Below, piece by piece: positions 3 to 10,960 of a stretch of 64,000 nucleotides of DNA; position 1 is the stretch's first letter, and each line of letters begins with the position of its first letter. The notes under the pieces are model-generated. The model saw only the letters and a program-made list of their open reading frames with translations. It was not told the origin of the DNA and did not search any database. The position numbers and the translations under genes were made by a program. This DNA comes from Thermosediminibacter oceani DSM 16646 (GTDB lineage: Bacteria > Bacillota > Thermosediminibacteria > Thermosediminibacterales > Thermosediminibacteraceae): NCBI RefSeq assembly GCF_000144645.1, contig NC_014377.1:434001-498000 (forward strand), read 5' to 3'.

Positions 3-3000
3 TCCAAGACTACCTTCAACGACTCCGTAACCAAGACTCTGACCGCCGGGACCCACAGCCTGGTGTTAAAGGTAACCGACGGTGTAGGCAGGACGACGAC
101 ATATACAAAATCCATCACGGTCCAGCCTGGATCTCCACCCCCGCCACCTCCTGGCAACATCAATGCTGATCTTAAGATGACTCTTAATCCGCCAAAATTG
201 AAGACTGGCACAACGGGGGATATAAACGTCTCACTCGACGCCAGCGGGTGCACTTCCACCGGCAGCGGGCCTTTTGCATATCGCTGGTGGGTAAAGCTGA
301 ACGGAACGTATATTACGCCTTCCGATGGCGTCAACCCTGGCGACGGAAGCCCATACTTCTCAATTGTGGCCAAAAAAGCAAAGCCCGGCGACGTAATATG
401 GGCTAAGGTCAAAGTACACGATTATTCACTCAACAAATCCAGCGAGGCGGAGACGCAAAGGACTGTTCTGGAAGAAGGTGTGGAACCTCCGGAAGAACCG
501 GAACCCGAGCCCGACCCCGGGCCGACCAACACCCCACCTGTTGCTAGGTTCTCGATGCCATCGAAAACCGGCCAGGGTACGACCGTAAACGTCACGAACA
601 GGTCTTATGACCTGGACGGCGAGATAGTGGACGTCGAATGGGACGTTTCTCCTTCTTCCGGCGTTGATGAAAATCTGGGCTTTGACGGAGGTACGATAAC
701 CTTTGACCGAACGGGGACTTACGATGTTACCCTTACCGTCTGGGACGACTTCGGTGACAGTGACAGCACAACGAAGACCATCGAAGTTACGAACGAGCCG
801 CCTGAAGCAGTCATATCGGCTCCAGTTGAGGTTATTCAGGGCGACGATGTGGTAATACGCTCCAATTCCTACGATCCGGACGGCGAGATATCCACCCATC
901 GGTGGTCAATATTGCCTTCAGAAGGAGTAATGGGGACGCTGGACGGCGAAAAGTCTACAATATGGTTTGACAAAACGGGAGAATACACTATTAGCCTTAC
1001 CGTCGAGGACGAATTCGGCCTTGAGGATACAACCCAGAAAACAATCACCGTGAAACCCGCAATTCCGGTAGCATACTTCGATTATTCTGGAACCCTGAAA
1101 GAAAACCGCAAAATAGTGCTTGACGCCTCCGGCAGCCGCACTTCCGAACGCTATCCGATGGTGTGGGAAGCCACCGAGTGGCAGATCATACCGCCAGCCG
1201 GAGGGTCGGAGTCGGACATAAAAATAGTTTCGTCGCCCGACATGAAGACCAGGACGGTGCTGTTCAAGAAGGCCGGAGATTATACCGTTCGAGTAAGGGT
1301 GAAAAACAGCGCCGGCCATTATTCCGAATGGTACGAAAAAGTCCTCACCATATATCCCGACTTGCCACCGATTGCCGACTTCTACGTATATAAGACGGTC
1401 TTGCGGAACCCCGACGATGAAAACTACGCCAGCATCCAGCTTTTTGACATAAGCTATTCCTCCGATGGGGATACAATAAATTCGCGGATATGGCGCTATA
1501 AATACGACAGCGACAATGATGGGAGTTTCGACGATGAAAGCTGGGTTGTCCTCGACGATGGGAACAACCTGTCACCAATATTAAAGACAAAAAACGTAGG
1601 GAAATATCTTTTTGAATTGAGTGTAAAGGAAGGATTCGGAGAAGAAACCATACCAGAATTCATATCACCGTCAGACTATAGAACCGCCGACACCTCGGAT
1701 AAGCCGATAAACGATAAGGTATGCGAATTAATAAACCTTCGGCCCGTGGTTGACTTCGAGGTATTGAAGAAAGTTAAAGCTGATGTGGTATTTACCATAG
1801 GGCAAGCAGGTCAAAAAACTCAAGATTTAGATAGTAAGATTAATCAATATATTAAACCAAAACTAGCAGCCAAAAATATCGATGCCCAGATTTCATCAAT
1901 ACAAACACGAATCATTGACTCAAAGACGAATTTCACATGGGAGAAATACGACCATGGCAAGGGTAAAGTAATCGGAAACGATATATATTTCTACGGCTAC
2001 ACTCAAAGAGGTTATTCGGACTTCTGGTATAGCGACGATCAGACACCTGGTAAAAAAACTTTTACTTTTGTTCTTAATGAAAATCAGGTTTATTATCATT
2101 CTTTCTATGGTGGAGGTTTTATTTTCGGGGCAAAAAAATATACCGATGGTACCTTTGAAGGATATGTCCTTCTATTTGACCAATCTACCGCCAGCATCAA
2201 AAGAATTCCACGAGTGAGCATGAGCCAGTATAGCAATACTGATGGTGACTTTGGGTATGTGCATCTTATAGGTGTTCCAAAGCAAAAAGGAGTACACAAT
2301 ATTAAAGTTGAAATAGACGGTATCAAAGTAAAGGTCTGGGATAACAATAATTTGATTATTGACTATACCTTACCTCAAAAAATAGGCGAAGGCTTTGGTA
2401 TAGTGGCAGACCATAATTCACATGACTGCGACGAAACCTCCACCTTTATATTTGGTAACCTGGTAATGAACTTTGAAAACGGCAAATCTCTCGACGAAGC
2501 CCTTAAAACTACCACCTGGAGGGACAACTCCATCCGGTTCCTGGTCAATATTAGCGACATAGAGCTTCCAGAACTCAACGACCCCATTAAACTGGGTGAC
2601 ATATTATCCAGGACGCTCTCCGCCGATGCGTATTTCGTGGGTCTCGGGACGGATACCAACAGGGCTCAGTATCAAACCTTCATTGCCAGGAACGACGGAA
2701 AAGGTACGTTCTTCTACAACACAAACATGGATACGGCATTAAACCAGACCGCAGACTACATTATCAGCGTGATCGAGTCAATACCTAAGCTCCTGGAGCA
2801 GTATGTACTCCTCGGCGAAGAAGTTACCTACAACACTTATTACAGCGATCCCGAAACCGACCCGAAATATCAGGAGCGCTGGATATACCAGCACGACCCG
2901 AACTATTTCGAAAACAGCCTCGGCCTTGCGCCTTTTAGCGGCCAGTATCTTTCCGGCCCAGTAACTGTCTTCGATAAAGTCGGTAAATACGAGGTCCAAT

Positions 3001-4799
3001 TCCAGGCCCGTGACAACCCGAAGGCCGACAACCGCTTCGACAACTACCGTCTCTGGAGCTACATGCCGCTTAATAAATTGGTGCTTTATGTCCACAGAAA
3101 GCCGGTTGCCTCATTCACGGCAAACTTAACCCCGGTCGGAACCGCATCACAGACGATTATCGAAGATTTCGAGGATACAAATTATGAGTTTAGTTTTTCC
3201 GGTAATTGGGGCAGGAGCACAGCTCAGAGGTATGCAGGGCAGTACTCATATAAAAGCGCCTCAATAAGCCATAGTTCGACAACCTCGACGCAGTTCACTT
3301 TTACTATACCGTCGGGCGCGACAAACGCAAAGATTAGTTTTTATTACCTCGTAAGATCCGAAGCTAACTATGATTTTTTCAACTTCTATATAAACGGGAA
3401 CAGGCTTATCCATGATTCAGGTTACGGTAGCTGGAAATATTTTTCTTACCCGTTATCTCCCGGAACATATACGTTTAAATTCGAATATACGAAAGACGGA
3501 TCCGTAAACAGATACGATGACGCTGCTTATGTAGATAATATCACTGTTCAGCATGATGGGGTTATAACCTCATACAACGTCCAGCTTAGCTCGACCTCTT
3601 ACGATCTGGACCATCAGTCGGAGCCGGGGAAAGGTATCACCCAGGAAGAATGGAAGTGGAAAGAGGTTACAGCCACATCCTGGAATTCCGGTAAACCGTC
3701 AACCCTGGGCGTAAACAAGACTTATATCGTATGGCTCAGGGTTAAGGACAAGGAAGAGGCCTGGAGCGATCCTTACGTCTCGGTGCTTTCAACGATGCAG
3801 GTAAATCTTGCCCCAATAGCAATGTTCACGGTCGACCCGAATACGCAGGTAGTAAACAAAACTATCTCCATATCGGACATGAGCTACGACCCAAACGGTG
3901 ACCCCATCGCAGAATGGTCATGGCGCGTCCAGAAACCTGACGGGACGTGGATAAATTACGGCAGCACGCCGCCGACTAACATACCTTCGCTGGGGGTTGG
4001 GACGTATACGATAGAGCTTAAAGTCCGGGACAATCCGCAATTCGGGACGACTTTGTGGTCTGAACCGTATACCCAGCAGGTAACGGTTATAGCGGACAAC
4101 AACAAGCCGGTGGCGAGGTTTACCATCAGCCCCAACCCCGTAGTAGCCGACGAGCCTTACACCATAAGCGACACCAGCTACGACCCCGACGGCGATCCCA
4201 TCGTGGCCAGAGAGTGGAAAGTGCAGAAGCCAGACGGAACCTGGGTAACGATAAACCAGTGGAAGCCTACCTTCGGCGACGACGGAACATATAAGATACA
4301 ATTAAGAGTTTTGGATGATCCAAGCCGTCGACATCCGGCATTAACGCCGATGTGGTCCGACCCATACGTTGTGACTGTGCAGGTCCAGGGGCGTTTAATC
4401 GTAATCGGCGATTCCAATAAGACCACATACAAAGCCGGAGAAGCCATGATACTCTATGCCAGGACCGAAGGAAAAGCTTACCGGGTGGAGGCCAGGATGT
4501 GGTATCCAAAGAATGAATTCAGTTCCTCGAACGTTACAACCTTGGTACCGGATACTCCCCTGACTTCACCTCCGCAGGACGTGATGACCTGGCATACGAA
4601 ACACACAAAGGCAGAAGGAAGAGACGTTGTTGTAATTATCCCCAAAAACATGCCCGACGGAAACTACCAGGTAGTATTCACCGCCTATAAGCAGTTAGCC
4701 GGCGGCGGGACGAAGACGGCGACGGACACCATCACGGTGAGGGTAAAGGGCACGATATACGACCATTCGAAATCGCAGATCATCGGCCCGCGGTTCTGA
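3..4799 (+). CDS. Large PKD-repeat surface protein (5' end missing)
   Basis: The reading frame is open to the left edge, so this is the C-terminal part (about 1,598 residues) of a longer protein; the first in-frame GTG at 63 is internal. PKD-type beta-sandwich repeats are seen at about nt 535-790, 793-1055, 1060-1350, 3808-4090 and 4100-4385, each opening with a PPVARF-like strand and carrying the SYDPDGD motif. Proline-rich linkers lie near 137 and 487-540. A jelly-roll-like module (about 3156-3550, starting IIEDFEDTNYEFSFSGNW) and a non-PKD module (about 1740-3090) sit between the repeats. No catalytic motif or membrane anchor is visible at the C-terminus. PKD arrays are known from extracellular adhesins and polymer-degrading enzymes; surface location and adhesion are inferred. 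The part at about 1780-2480 is visibly more AT-rich than its flanks. Confidence 0.85.
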   Translation, partial: SKTTFNDSVTKTLTAGTHSLVLKVTDGVGRTTTYTKSITVQPGSPPPPPPGNINADLKMTLNPPKLKTGTTGDINVSLDASGCTSTGSGPFAYRWWVKLNGTYITPSDGVNPGDGSPYFSIVAKKAKPGDVIWAKVKVHDYSLNKSSEAETQRTVLEEGVEPPEEPEPEPDPGPTNTPPVARFSMPSKTGQGTTVNVTNRSYDLDGEIVDVEWDVSPSSGVDENLGFDGGTITFDRTGTYDVTLTVWDDFGDSDSTTKTIEVTNEPPEAVISAPVEVIQGDDVVIRSNSYDPDGEISTHRWSILPSEGVMGTLDGEKSTIWFDKTGEYTISLTVEDEFGLEDTTQKTITVKPAIPVAYFDYSGTLKENRKIVLDASGSRTSERYPMVWEATEWQIIPPAGGSESDIKIVSSPDMKTRTVLFKKAGDYTVRVRVKNSAGHYSEWYEKVLTIYPDLPPIADFYVYKTVLRNPDDENYASIQLFDISYSSDGDTINSRIWRYKYDSDNDGSFDDESWVVLDDGNNLSPILKTKNVGKYLFELSVKEGFGEETIPEFISPSDYRTADTSDKPINDKVCELINLRPVVDFEVLKKVKADVVFTIGQAGQKTQDLDSKINQYIKPKLAAKNIDAQISSIQTRIIDSKTNFTWEKYDHGKGKVIGNDIYFYGYTQRGYSDFWYSDDQTPGKKTFTFVLNENQVYYHSFYGGGFIFGAKKYTDGTFEGYVLLFDQSTASIKRIPRVSMSQYSNTDGDFGYVHLIGVPKQKGVHNIKVEIDGIKVKVWDNNNLIIDYTLPQKIGEGFGIVADHNSHDCDETSTFIFGNLVMNFENGKSLDEALKTTTWRDNSIRFLVNISDIELPELNDPIKLGDILSRTLSADAYFVGLGTDTNRAQYQTFIARNDGKGTFFYNTNMDTALNQTADYIISVIESIPKLLEQYVLLGEEVTYNTYYSDPETDPKYQERWIYQHDPNYFENSLGLAPFSGQYLSGPVTVFDKVGKYEVQFQARDNPKADNRFDNYRLWSYMPLNKLVLYVHRKPVASFTANLTPVGTASQTIIEDFEDTNYEFSFSGNWGRSTAQRYAGQYSYKSASISHSSTTSTQFTFTIPSGATNAKISFYYLVRSEANYDFFNFYINGNRLIHDSGYGSWKYFSYPLSPGTYTFKFEYTKDGSVNRYDDAAYVDNITVQHDGVITSYNVQLSSTSYDLDHQSEPGKGITQEEWKWKEVTATSWNSGKPSTLGVNKTYIVWLRVKDKEEAWSDPYVSVLSTMQVNLAPIAMFTVDPNTQVVNKTISISDMSYDPNGDPIAEWSWRVQKPDGTWINYGSTPPTNIPSLGVGTYTIELKVRDNPQFGTTLWSEPYTQQVTVIADNNKPVARFTISPNPVVADEPYTISDTSYDPDGDPIVAREWKVQKPDGTWVTINQWKPTFGDDGTYKIQLRVLDDPSRRHPALTPMWSDPYVVTVQVQGRLIVIGDSNKTTYKAGEAMILYARTEGKAYRVEARMWYPKNEFSSSNVTTLVPDTPLTSPPQDVMTWHTKHTKAEGRDVVVIIPKNMPDGNYQVVFTAYKQLAGGGTKTATDTITVRVKGTIYDHSKSQIIGPRF

Positions 4800-5360: not shown

Positions 5361-5450
5361 ATGCAATATATACTCACCATTGCAAAATCGCTGCTGAAAA
5401 TTGAGTTCGAAATTGAAATAAAAATAATCATAAAAAAGAAAGTAGCTTAG
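5361..5450 (+). CDS. 29-residue peptide of repeated unit A
   Basis: ATG lies 11 bases after GGGAGGGGG. The peptide has a hydrophobic N-terminal half (MQYILTIAKSLL), then alternating acidic/hydrophobic residues (KIEFEIEIKIII) and a basic tail (KKKVA). The peptide of copy B (9020-9103) shares SLL, the EIE block and the KKK tail although the nucleotides differ, which supports translation. The 3' end overlaps the terminator of the opposing small RNA. A membrane-active toxin-like peptide is one inference; a leader peptide is another. No known family recognised. Confidence 0.6.
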   Translation: MQYILTIAKSLLKIEFEIEIKIIIKKKVA

Positions 5451-5512
5451 AGAAAGCTACTATACCCTAACTGACTCGCTAGTATTTTCCACACTTGCCT
5501 CATCGGCACCTC
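5432..5512 (-). ncRNA. Convergent small RNA of unit A (candidate antisense regulator)
   Basis: Predicted RNA of about 80 nt from the promoter at 5519-5548 to a terminator GTAGCTT-TCTC-TAAGCTAC followed by TTTCTTTTTT. Its 3' part is antisense to the stop codon and last codons of the peptide. Its first 26 nt (complement of 5487-5512) nearly repeat the leader segment 5303-5328 in the same sense. A full plus-strand transcript could therefore fold its 3' end back on its leader. Confidence 0.55.
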
Positions 5513-5518
5513 ATTTAT

Positions 5519-5548
5519 ATTATACCTCTTTTAATTCGTATTTATCAA
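5519..5548 (-). promoter_or_regulatory. Promoter of the convergent RNA, unit A
   Basis: Minus strand TTGATA (5548-5543) and TATAAT (5524-5519), spacing 18. Both boxes and the spacing are identical in copy B at 9177-9206, although the spacer differs. Confidence 0.65.
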
Positions 5549-5622
5549 TAGTTTTTTAAAAAGACTATCGTTAGGTACGGTTCGTGGAAAGGTGTCTTTC
5601 CGCCCAAAATTAAAATTTGGAC
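5545..5622 (-). pseudogene. Tail of a serine-recombinase-like gene
   Basis: A minus-strand frame ending LGGKTPFHEPYLTIVFLKNY resembles the C-terminal EPCLTIPLSVEWK end of the recombinase fragment at 6956-7309. Its TGA stop lies inside the -35 box of the small-RNA promoter, so the RNA begins directly behind the recombinase remnant. Only the tail is present. Confidence 0.4.
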
Positions 5623-5719
5623 GGAAAAATTAACGAATAGAACAGATATTCGCCATTGTTAAACCCTTGATATTCTTAGCATATCCATAAATCATGATAT
5701 AAAAGAATAAGTTATACAA

Positions 5720-5767
5720 GCACTCGTAATGCGCAGGTCGTGGGTTCGAATCCCACCATCAGCTCCA
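5720..5767 (+). other. 3' fragment of tRNA-Thr (CGT): probable attachment scar
   Basis: The segment contains an anticodon loop with CGT, the 3' anticodon-stem strand TGCGC, variable loop AGGTC, a complete T arm (GTGGG-TTCGAAT-CCCAC), the 3' acceptor strand CATCAGC and T-CCA. The D arm and 5' acceptor strand GCTGATG are absent, and pairing of the anticodon stem stops two bases short. A tRNA 3' end without its 5' half is what remains at the far end of an element integrated into a tRNA gene. No intact copy lies in this window. Confidence 0.75.
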
Positions 5768-5775
5768 GAGAACAT

Positions 5776-5808
5776 AAAGCTTCCGGGATTTTTCCCGGAA
5801 GCTTTTTT
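5776..5808 (+). terminator. Terminator behind the tRNA fragment
   Basis: AAAGCTTCCGGGA-TTT-TCCCGGAAGCTTT followed by T residues, immediately downstream of the tRNA 3' fragment. It may be the original tRNA terminator or one copied with the attachment site. Confidence 0.75.
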
Positions 5809-5869
5809 GGTTAGGTTCTGTCGGTATCTGGTATATAAAAAGTATCCTTCAAAACCTCGGCCCAACATC

Positions 5870-5960
5870 GAGCCTCTAACCGGCTCCATGCAGGGTCTGA
5901 TTTAAGGGCACCTCCGCTTAACGGGCTTACGCCCTGGCGGAAGTGCCCCTGTTGTAAAAG
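5870..5960 (-). repeat. Structured repeat, copy 2 (GNRA-capped hairpin)
   Basis: Second copy of the repeat at 4811-4900. The main stem and the GTAA tetraloop are unchanged; the small second hairpin keeps the stem GAGCC/GGCTC but has a different loop. The two copies lie about 1.06 kb apart, on either side of peptide unit A and the tRNA scar. Confidence 0.6.
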
Positions 5961-6142
5961 CTAGAAAGACCTGGGGTCACTGGACCCATAAAGCCAGCAG
6001 GTATAACATTGGCCTTATTTAATCATTCATCTGAAAAAATCACTCTACGATACATAGGAATTTCTCAGGCTCCTATGATGAATTGTATAGCTAAGTGTAG
6101 TTTTAAAAATAATATATACTGGAAGTTTAACTCGGACAGTGC

Positions 6143-6285
6143 TTGAAGAATTATATTCTATACTGTATTATAGTATTGAAGGTTCTCCGATGCTAGCAAC
6201 ATCGGAGAACCTGGTAGGTAGTATACCCAACTAATGATAAATACACAGGATACTTTCAGACTGCTTTTAGGCAGCTTTTTTTTCT
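6143..6285 (+). ncRNA. Candidate RNA antitoxin, convergent to the toxin at 6267-6374
   Basis: TTGAAG (6143-6148) and TATTAT (6166-6171) are 17 bp apart. The predicted RNA starts near 6178 and carries a strong hairpin with 12-bp arms GGTTCTCCGATG/CATCGGAGAACC (6181-6211). It ends at CTGC-TTTTAG-GCAG plus eight T near 6285. It overlaps the 3' end of the small toxin gene on the other strand, the arrangement known from TxpA/RatA and BsrG/SR4 of Bacillus subtilis. Confidence 0.5.
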
Positions 6286-6374
6286 GTCTTTATGTTCGTG
6301 TTCGTGACCATAATCGTGAGTGAGATAACATCTAAAATTAGCTGAAGCAAGAGGATAACTTCTGTTATTGTCAT
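6267..6374 (-). CDS. Small hydrophobic type I toxin-like peptide (35 aa)
   Basis: ATG at 6374 follows GGGGGTGG on the minus strand. The peptide begins MTITEVILLLQLILDVISL and ends in a charged tail (KTEKKAA): a single hydrophobic segment with a basic end, as in the holin-like TxpA/YonT/BsrG toxins. An extended -10 (TGC TATAAT, 6429-6434) lies upstream, and a convergent RNA gene overlaps its 3' end. Expected role: membrane toxin held in check by antisense RNA. Assigned by architecture; not tested by search. Confidence 0.6.
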   Translation of the reverse strand: MTITEVILLLQLILDVISLTIMVTNTNIKTEKKAA

Positions 6375-6659: not shown

Positions 6660-6892
6660 TACCCTAAACTATATTGCCTAAGGATTAGAGTGATTCAACT
6701 CCGGCTCTTTATTCTGATTTCATAGCAATTGCCCATATCTTTTATGCTTTTTATCTTGGCCAGCTGAGACCCTCGTGTTATAGTATACTCTTTCAAATTT
6801 AACCTTCTATAAATTATTAACGAAAAATGAGTTGGAAAGTTTATCTTTTATCATACTACCTTCTAAATTTTTAGTAATAATATCTAAATCTC

Positions 6893-7029
6893 CATATATC
6901 AGCTTTCATTATCAATTTCTTTACTTTCAATCCGTCAATTGATGAAAAGCAAGGCTTAAACGTAATTATCGGAGTAAATAATTTTCCATTCCACGGAAAG
7001 GGGTATCGTCAGGCACGGTTCGCCTCCAC
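6893..7029. repeat. Direct repeat, left copy, flanking the fluoride cassette
   Basis: About 137 bp that recur at 8563-8706 with a few substitutions and small indels. Both copies contain, on the minus strand, the last 20-odd codons of a serine recombinase (PCLTIPLSVEWKIIYS) and the sequence downstream of it. The left copy is more degraded in the downstream frame. Confidence 0.7.
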
Positions 7030-7309
7030 CAAGATTACCCCTTTCCGTTTCGAATTTAATATTTATTTTTAGAGAAGTATCTATCCTATCGGGATGGATT
7101 ATTATTTTATCTACAAAGGTCTCAATTATTTTCCTTTTAGCCTTAGGATTATCACTTAAAGGGGATTCCTTACAGTGCTTTAAATAGTTTATTATTTTTT
7201 CGCTATCCAGCCAGCTATATTTAGCTGCTTTTAGTTCGGCCAGTCTATTATCACATTGAATCATGGGAGCGATCAGAGAAGAATATAAAGAATTCATAGA
7301 GGTGGCCAA
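6956..7309 (-). pseudogene. C-terminal fragment of a large serine recombinase
   Basis: 117 residues with the look of the C-terminal region of large serine recombinases: a charged helical part (CDNRLAELKAAKYSWLDSEK), then FVDKIIIHPDRIDTSLKINI, then EPCLTIPLSVEWK. The N-terminal catalytic domain with its active-site serine is absent and no intact start is evident. The upstream part runs into an unrelated plus-strand fragment at 7263. Its last 25 codons lie inside the direct repeat 6893-7029. It is a remnant of a site-specific integration element, too short to be active. Confidence 0.6.
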
Positions 7310-7488: not shown

Positions 7489-7854
7489 TCAGAGAATTAT
7501 GTGGGTAATTGAGCCACCAATCCAAGCGAATATAACTCCCAATAATACTGATGTTGAAATATAAATTACTGCATTTCTTGTATCTTTTTTTTGCAACATT
7601 AGAATAGTTTCATATCCGAAGGTTGAAAAGGTTGTATATGCTCCAAGAAAACCAGTACAAAAGAGAAGCCATAAACCTTCAGAAATTGCATTATTAAAAT
7701 GTAAAACGGCAAGAATACCCAGAATGAAAGAACCACTTATGTTTATTATCCAAGTCCCGAAAGGAAAGGCAGACGATGCCTTGCTTGTTATCCATTTCCC
7801 AAGCACAAACCTTGAAATTGCCCCAATTATGCCTCCAACACCGACTAAGAACAT
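7489..7854 (-). CDS. crcB: Fluoride channel CrcB/Fluc, second of a tandem pair
   Basis: 121 residues with four hydrophobic segments and the family signature GFLGAYTTFSTF at about residues 67-78 plus the N-terminal GGIIGAISRF motif. CrcB/Fluc proteins are small dual-topology membrane channels that release fluoride from the cytoplasm. Its start overlaps the last base of the upstream gene, so the two are translated together. Tandem crcB genes usually encode two oppositely oriented subunits of a heterodimer, which is inferred here. Expression should follow the fluoride riboswitch at 8284-8375. Confidence 0.92.
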   Translation of the reverse strand: MFLVGVGGIIGAISRFVLGKWITSKASSAFPFGTWIINISGSFILGILAVLHFNNAISEGLWLLFCTGFLGAYTTFSTFGYETILMLQKKDTRNAVIYISTSVLLGVIFAWIGGSITHIIL

Positions 7855-8255
7855 TACTCTAACTCTCCTTCCATTCCCCCAGATGGTTGAACAGTCAATG
7901 TCGCCAATTTAAAGCCAGTAATGGCTAATCCAATACCACCAAGAATACTCAATAGAACATAAATTAAAGCCATTACAAGATGGTTACTCTTTATAAGATT
8001 CAGTGTTTCAACTGAAAAAGTTGAAAATGTAGTAAAAGCCCCAGTAAATCCTGTGCCTATGGCTAATTTTAGTGTCGGATTGATATGCCACCGTTTTTCA
8101 GTGATGGTATAAAACCAAGCAAGAAAGAAACACCCCAATAGGTTAATGGTTAATGTGCCAAGCGGAAAACTATTCGTTACTGGAATCCACATTCCAACCA
8201 AATAACGCATGATAGCCCCAAAGAAACCTCCAACTCCTACTGCAAATACATCCAC
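7854..8255 (-). CDS. crcB: Fluoride channel CrcB/Fluc, first of a tandem pair
   Basis: 133 residues, four membrane segments, signature GFTGAFTTFSTFSVE and the N-terminal GGFFGAIMRYLVG motif. The ATG follows TAGGGGGGTATTG. The C-terminus (QPSGGMEGELE) is hydrophilic and slightly longer than usual. It lies directly below the fluoride riboswitch and terminator and overlaps the second crcB by one base, forming a two-gene operon. Together with the partner it should protect the cell against fluoride. Confidence 0.93.
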   Translation of the reverse strand: MDVFAVGVGGFFGAIMRYLVGMWIPVTNSFPLGTLTINLLGCFFLAWFYTITEKRWHINPTLKLAIGTGFTGAFTTFSTFSVETLNLIKSNHLVMALIYVLLSILGGIGLAITGFKLATLTVQPSGGMEGELE

Positions 8256-8283: not shown

Positions 8284-8375
8284 CTAAAAATAACCAGACT
8301 CCTACCAGCAACAAGAGATCGCTGGTAGGAGTCATTAGTCGCACGGACGGTTAGGGCGAACTCCATCGCCTATTT
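8284..8375 (-). ncRNA. Fluoride riboswitch with expression-platform terminator
   Basis: The minus strand reads GGCGATGGAGTTCGCC and then CTAACCGTCC, the conserved P1/P2 and pseudoknot elements of the crcB (fluoride) motif. The 3' strand of the aptamer merges with a 13-bp terminator stem (GACTCCTACCAGC at 8297 with GCTGGTAGGAGTC to 8333) followed by TGGTTATTTTT. Fluoride binding would favour antitermination and expression of the two crcB genes, as established for this class. Confidence 0.93.
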
Positions 8376-8386
8376 GATTACGAATT

Positions 8387-8482: not shown

Positions 8483-8620
8483 TTATAATTTTTTATAAAT
8501 TTCTGCGTAAGCTACTTTTAATTGTTCTCGTAATTGCTTGTTATCGTCTTCTAACTTTATCTCCACATACCAGCTTTCATTATCAAGTTCTTTACTTTCA
8601 ATCCGCCAATTGATTGGGTG
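8483..8620 (-). pseudogene. C-terminal remnant of an unknown coiled-coil gene
   Basis: A minus-strand frame reads PINWRIESKELDNESWYVEI and then LEDDNKQLREQLKVAYAEI before KKL and stop. It is protein-like, with a short coiled coil, but has no start. The copy at 6893-6955 carries the same frame interrupted by three stops. It follows the recombinase tail and probably belonged to the same mobile element. Confidence 0.35.
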
Positions 8621-8706
8621 AATAAGCAAGGATTAAACGTAATTACCGGAGTAAATAATTTTCCATTCCACGGAAAGGGGTATTGTCAGGCACGGTTTGC
8701 CTCCAT
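8563..8706. repeat. Direct repeat, right copy, with recombinase tail
   Basis: Right partner of the repeat at 6893-7029. The minus-strand recombinase end here reads GGKPCLTIPLSVEWKIIYSG and stops at 8633. Together the two copies bracket the recombinase fragment, the inverted repeat and the crcB operon. They could mark two successive element ends or a duplication by recombination. Confidence 0.7.
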
Positions 8707-8904
8707 CATAAAATCAAACTTTGCGAACATAAGCCTGGAGGAGACGTTTTCATCTTCCGGGCTTTTAGTTTTTTCTGATTATGTACAAAGCAGGATTTTG
8801 GCAAAATATATCAAAAATGCACAATAAGGCGAAATCTGATTAAAGCCCATATAGTGAGATTGTTCTATTATGGTGCTTCTATGTTGCTTATTTGCAGGAA
8901 AAAA

Positions 8905-10734: not shown

Positions 10735-10960
10735 GAATTTATTATACCGAGGACGCCGGGCAATCAAATGAGCTGAAAACAAAAAAGCCGTTGTTGTTCG
10801 GCTCCGTAAATATTTGATATAATTAACTTATTAAGGCAAGTGGGACACTCGTATCATCGAAACTTCACTAATATTTTAACTCTTTTAATTTGAATTTATC
10901 CCAAAGAATATTTTCTTACACGGAAAGAGGTATCGTTAAGCACGGTTCGCCTTTATCAAA
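10735..10960. repeat. Deleted remnant of the peptide unit plus recombinase tail
   Basis: 10772-10848 matches 5171-5243 (terminator hairpin, TATAAT, AGGCAAGTGG). The sequence then jumps to the homologue of the unit's right end (CATCG, CTTCACTAATATTTTAACTC). The leader, peptide and small-RNA body are missing. Downstream, on the minus strand, KGEPCLTIPLSV and stop (10916) is another serine-recombinase tail. So the right boundary of this unit again abuts a recombinase end. Confidence 0.55.

Follow-up and report, generated by a model that had tools for sequence, protein, structure and literature searches.

Islands carrying the serine recombinase DsiB are described in tandem at ssrA in Dehalococcoides (PMC3146451), and exchange of the integration module is described as established for the streptococcal integrative conjugative elements (ICEs; PMC4701971). 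We present here a locus of Thermosediminibacter oceani DSM 16646 at which an ICE inserted at ssrA contains part of a tRNA-Thr(CGT) gene. This fragment is, with good probability, the fossil att site of the former tyrosine integrase of the ICE, carried along through an integrase exchange.

The T. oceani genome is a single contig (C1) of 2,280,035 bp, the published genome size (PMC3035372). The stretch of DNA analysed here, the window, is 64,000 nucleotides long (C1:434001-498000), and coordinates without a contig prefix are positions in it. The features at its left end, with strand where one applies, are as follows.

63-4799, plus strand: C-terminal part of a PKD-domain surface protein, the last large ICE gene (whole frame C1:433328-438796)
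5362-5451, plus strand: 29-codon frame, MQYILTIAKSLLKIEFEIEIKIIIKKKVA, in the right end of the ICE body; short peptides resembling it occur in other copies
5400-5584: right end of the ICE body, ending TATCGTTAGGTACGGTTCG (5566-5584), a sequence similar to the right-hand att half of the ssrA-specific serine recombinase
5585-5719: left arm of the probable fossil tyrosine-integrase att site, ending ATAAGTTATACAA; also adjoins this core in G001 (L063) and G003 (L065)
5720-5767, plus strand: core of that probable att site, the tRNA-Thr(CGT) 3′ part (48/48 with C1:183065-183112)
5768-5818, plus strand: terminator directly 3′ of the core, of the element type instead of the native host type (46 of 51 positions shared with the intact locus on its integrase side; cross-genome alignment)
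6888-7031: RE1, the present right end of the ICE, TATCGTCAGGCACGGTT followed by CGCCTCCACCA (ssrA 3′ end); 90% identical to RE2 over 150 bp
6956-7309, minus strand: C-terminal remnant of a second ssrA-type serine recombinase, the left end of a tandem second element
7489-8255, minus strand: two crcB genes for fluoride channels, carried as cargo by the second remnant (PF02537 examined for the 7854-8255 gene)
8319-8379, minus strand: fluoride riboswitch upstream of the crcB genes (Rfam RF01734, 55 bits)
8559-8708 (C1:442559-442708): RE2, right end of the second remnant

An earlier note on the window had described 5720-5767 as the 3′ half of tRNA-Thr(CGT) without its 5′ half and with a terminator behind it, and both points hold. 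The fragment begins within the 5′ strand of the anticodon stem, ends with the CCA and is identical to the intact gene at all 48 positions, and ARAGORN detects no tRNA there. On its left the identity breaks off sharply (4 of 20 bp match the intact locus); on its right 46 of 51 bp, terminator included, match the integrase side of that locus. A 45-bp search allowing up to three mismatches returned exactly two copies, the fragment and the intact gene, and a reversed-sequence control returned none, so chance is excluded. A duplicate tRNA-Thr gene that decayed and lost its 5′ half, with integration playing no part, would equally leave ARAGORN without a complete tRNA at the fragment, but this is hardly credible: the identity break is sharp, recurs at one and the same base across several genomes and has element arms alongside, and relatives' versions of the neighbouring ICE target tRNA-Thr(CGT) itself.

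The intact gene lies at C1:183038-183112, in the orientation of the fragment and 256.6 kb from it. Beside it is a tyrosine-integrase pseudogene, truncated and with an in-frame TAG (match C1:183260-183817), which is 90% identical to residues 133-396 of an intact 398-residue integrase of G003. Beyond the pseudogene are apparent ars genes and insertion-sequence genes, named from sequence without a family search. The pseudogene, with the intact integrase in relatives, upholds the view of the fragment as an attachment relic of a tyrosine integrase targeting tRNA-Thr(CGT). The two host flanks of the intact gene have stayed together, at 183-191 kb; their frames, at 181.3 and 191.2 kb, have homologues that flank tRNA-Thr(CGT) in relatives too. 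Because these flanks are conserved on both sides, the 256-kb interval, which includes ssrA and tRNA-Arg, is not one island. The check suggested in the earlier note, whether the same repeat and the intact gene bound an island with an integrase, thus came out negative: the fragment has the same orientation and an integrase neighbours the intact gene, as a pseudogene only, but the copies do not enclose a single tyrosine-integrase island. An island that started at the intact gene and was later split or enlarged by chromosomal rearrangement, with the fragment as its attR, would fit the shared orientation and the adjacent integrase pseudogene. It is nevertheless very improbable, as both host flanks lie within about 8 kb of the tRNA-Thr gene, their conservation contradicts such a reading, and the left end of the ICE joins LSR-A and ssrA at a junction that also occurs in G006.

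The element associated with the fragment lies to its left, because the fragment and the intact tRNA gene share strand orientation. An ICE of about 40 kb, predicted to be self-transferring, extends leftward from past the fragment to the tmRNA gene ssrA (C1:400,229-400,577). It starts at C1:400.6 kb, and the fragment is about 1.26 kb inside its right end. Its genes encode the large serine recombinase LSR-A, ImmA, Xre, a T2SSE secretion ATPase, an actin-like protein, a MobL relaxase, a VirD4-type coupling protein, a VirB4/TraG ATPase, an M23 peptidase and the large PKD protein. A homologue of the last (69% identical) occupies the equivalent position next to the fragment in T. litoriperuensis (G001, L063). 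LSR-A abuts the ssrA 3′ end (PF00239, PF07508 and PF13408 in C1:400145-402112), and Pfam identifies the conjugation genes as a MobL relaxase, a T4SS-DNA_transf coupling protein and a TraG P-loop VirB4. The sequence marks of an ICE at ssrA are found here, namely a serine recombinase at the ssrA 3′ end, a copy of the 3′ end of ssrA at the far boundary and conjugation genes.

Several further observations concern this element. The LSR-A frame (L022:7145-9112) continues through the ssrA antisense to C1:400145, an overlap also reported for DsiB of Dehalococcoides (PMC3146451), and the frame of a second large serine recombinase, LSR-B (L126:11849-13972), continues through the antisense of its target, a tRNA cluster; as both frames cross their target in antisense, insertion alters the recombinase C-terminus. 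A hairpin-rich repeat of about 100 bp occurs at window 5855-5961, at C1:415366, 431214 and 438810, and in relatives' copies of the ICE. Compared with relatives, C1:395,000-443,300, comprising ssrA and the inserted elements, is inverted relative to its host neighbours, which are a short-chain dehydrogenase-like gene on one side and ACT/cobQ on the other.

The claim of the earlier note that the fragment marks the edge of a present or past element stands for a past one, as a relic of the tyrosine-integrase att site; the present element extends about 1.26 kb beyond the fragment, to an ssrA-type att site. The island that the note had placed to the right of the fragment, up to about 11 kb, was rejected: C1 402-450 kb yielded no tyrosine integrase, the debris right of the fragment consists of the ICE end and a 1.7-kb crcB remnant, and, judged from the att ends, host sequence appears to start again near window 8709. 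The ssrA 3′ end recurs as a short copy, CGCCTCCACCA, at 7021-7031 and, altered at two positions, at 8698-8708. The recombinase remnant at 6956-7309 is 65% identical to LSR-A residues 433-509, and its DNA is 81% identical to the left end beside ssrA. The simplest reading of this arrangement would be two tandem ssrA elements, the ICE, ending at 7031, and the 1.7-kb remnant with the two crcB genes. The host ssrA terminator appears to resume just past RE2, judged by eye against the G003 ssrA locus. A tblastn search between the fragment and RE1 found no tyrosine-integrase remnant, so this interval offers no direct trace of an in-place replacement of the integrase. Neither the 29-residue frame at 5362-5451 nor a 35-residue hydrophobic frame at 6267-6374 (minus strand; MTITEVILLLQLILDVISLTIMVTNTNIKTEKKAA) has a Pfam match; the latter stands behind a purine-rich stretch and recalls small holin-like toxins. 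Separately, a TATCGT(T/C)A(A/G)GC(A/G)CGGTTCG motif at 10931-10949 and L117:4519 resembles the right end of an ssrA element and sits upstream of cobQ in both Thermosediminibacter species.

The same ICE backbone is found behind other integrases at other sites. G003 and G007 carry it behind a tyrosine integrase that adjoins tRNA-Thr(CGT), and the sister species T. litoriperuensis (G001) carries it behind LSR-B at the tRNA-Leu(TAA) 3′ end. LSR-A and LSR-B share 25% identity, and in all three integrase types precede one backbone. In G008 the N-terminal part of LSR-B precedes ImmA. G006 contains LSR-A pieces and ICE genes at ssrA, with the LSR-A/ssrA junction as in T. oceani; a clear right end of this remnant was not found. 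The fragment and its left flank are also present in G001, on the right side of its ICE (87.6% identity over 380 bp), the right end of that ICE being interrupted by the contig end. At the tRNA-Leu(TAA) locus of T. oceani itself there is a decayed 2.85-kb remnant. It retains the C-terminal part of LSR-B (89% across 247 residues) and a pair of decayed tRNA-Thr fragments (C1:1,381,212-1,381,310 and 1,379,190-1,379,244), and ahead of tRNA-Val the tRNA-Leu 3′ end is present a second time. In contig 42 of G003, two tRNA-Thr att cores follow one another.

Among 121 genomes, close ImmA relatives (at least 69% identical) are confined to Thermosediminibacteraceae. ICE relatives found through VirB4 in Moorella, Thermoanaerobacter and others were unhelpful; they gave no match to the arm plus fragment, and their ImmA proteins are just 28-39% identical. 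Mean identity to G003 is 82% for ICE proteins and 74% for host proteins, while against the congener G001 the means are 80% for ICE proteins and 91% for host proteins; each mean was taken over six to 27 frames. This contrast is in line with horizontal movement of the element.

The terminators bear on whether the fragment is an attP or an attR. Where tRNA-Thr has no tyrosine integrase beside it (G003 C69, G006 and G002) a different terminator follows the gene, while loci with the integrase have the GAGAACATAAGGCTTCCGGG-type terminator, and the fragment has the GAGAACATAAGGCTTCCGGG type as well. The fragment therefore seems to resemble an attP or a tandem-copy junction more than a simple displaced host end. 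This evidence is supportive and not conclusive, because earlier insertions could have swapped out the native terminator. Alternatively, ICEs resident together at tRNA-Thr and ssrA may have recombined through their common backbone. The right end of the tRNA-Thr copy would thereby have become attached to the LSR-A copy at ssrA, and the fragment would be an attR gained by homologous recombination. Co-residence is plausible given the T. oceani ICE traces at tRNA-Thr, ssrA and tRNA-Leu, and no tRNA-Thr fragment was seen in the ssrA elements of G005 and G006. We nonetheless regard this as unlikely, in view of the element-type terminator after the fragment, which is not the native one of G003 C69 and G006, and of the presence of the fragment with its left flank in the congener G001 beside yet another recombinase. 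A fossil site carried through integrase exchange is the reading we prefer, and the site is most likely an attP.

From the fragment, the ICE genes, the integrase types and targets and the tandem ssrA ends, all of which are observed, we infer an exchange on the element by replacement of the integrase gene, and the order of events that follows. An ancestral element would have inserted into the 3′ end of tRNA-Thr(CGT) by means of a tyrosine integrase, its own tRNA 3′ half and terminator restoring the gene. Later LSR-A, which targets the ssrA 3′ end, would have replaced the integrase gene in its place flanked by the att site and the ImmA/Xre pair, and the old att site would have been retained in the circular element. 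When LSR-A inserted the element at ssrA, the linear map would have opened at the new att site, stranding the old one about 1.26 kb inside the right end.

The sequence left of the fragment may extend this history further back. The stretch TATCGTTAGGTACGGTTCG is possibly an older fossil att half. The region 5400-5584 is 87.6% identical in T. litoriperuensis, 83% at the G005 tRNA-Thr locus and 81.5% at the end of the G005 ssrA remnant, where sequence related to this region runs directly into CGCCTCCACCA. The left flank 5400-5631 is likewise found at the G005 tRNA-Thr locus (83%), and for the more diverged left arms a shuffle test gave modest support (z about 3.4-4.3). A short motif thus suggests that an ssrA phase may have preceded the tyrosine phase. 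We tentatively propose, at somewhat short of an even chance, that the ICE right end is a layered record of an ssrA-type half (5566-5584), the tRNA-Thr site (5720-5767) and the present ssrA-type end (7004-7031), in the order serine, tyrosine, serine, with each new module entering at one and the same junction, beside ImmA.

That ICEs exchange integrases is already known, and the att record kept here is an uncommonly clear example of it. Swaps are usually inferred from gene trees; with the abandoned att site retained in the element, the swaps and their targets, and perhaps also their order, become readable from the sequence. A tRNA 3′ fragment need not be the edge of a present island, which calls for caution with fragment-based methods of island mapping. 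Our limited literature search, of titles, abstracts and passages, found no prior description of a former integrase's att site kept inside an ICE.

Likened by placement, the T. oceani ICE agrees with the ssrA islands of Dehalococcoides in having a serine recombinase at its left end whose 3′ end overlaps ssrA, and tandem elements with copies of the ssrA 3′ end at their boundaries. The Dehalococcoides islands are called mobilizable only (PMC3146451), whereas the T. oceani ICE encodes a relaxase, a coupling protein and VirB4/TraG and, unlike them as described, holds the relic att site of another integrase. As in the Islander-type islands described in PMC4383910, there is a tyrosine integrase, a restored tRNA gene and a 3′ fragment as its mark, but the T. 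oceani fragment is not the displaced end of the present insertion, and 256 kb separate it from the intact gene. As in the streptococcal ICEs, related conjugation modules occur with tyrosine or serine integrases and varied targets; in the account of PMC4701971 exchange is inferred from gene trees, whereas in the T. oceani ICE the former att site is still visible.
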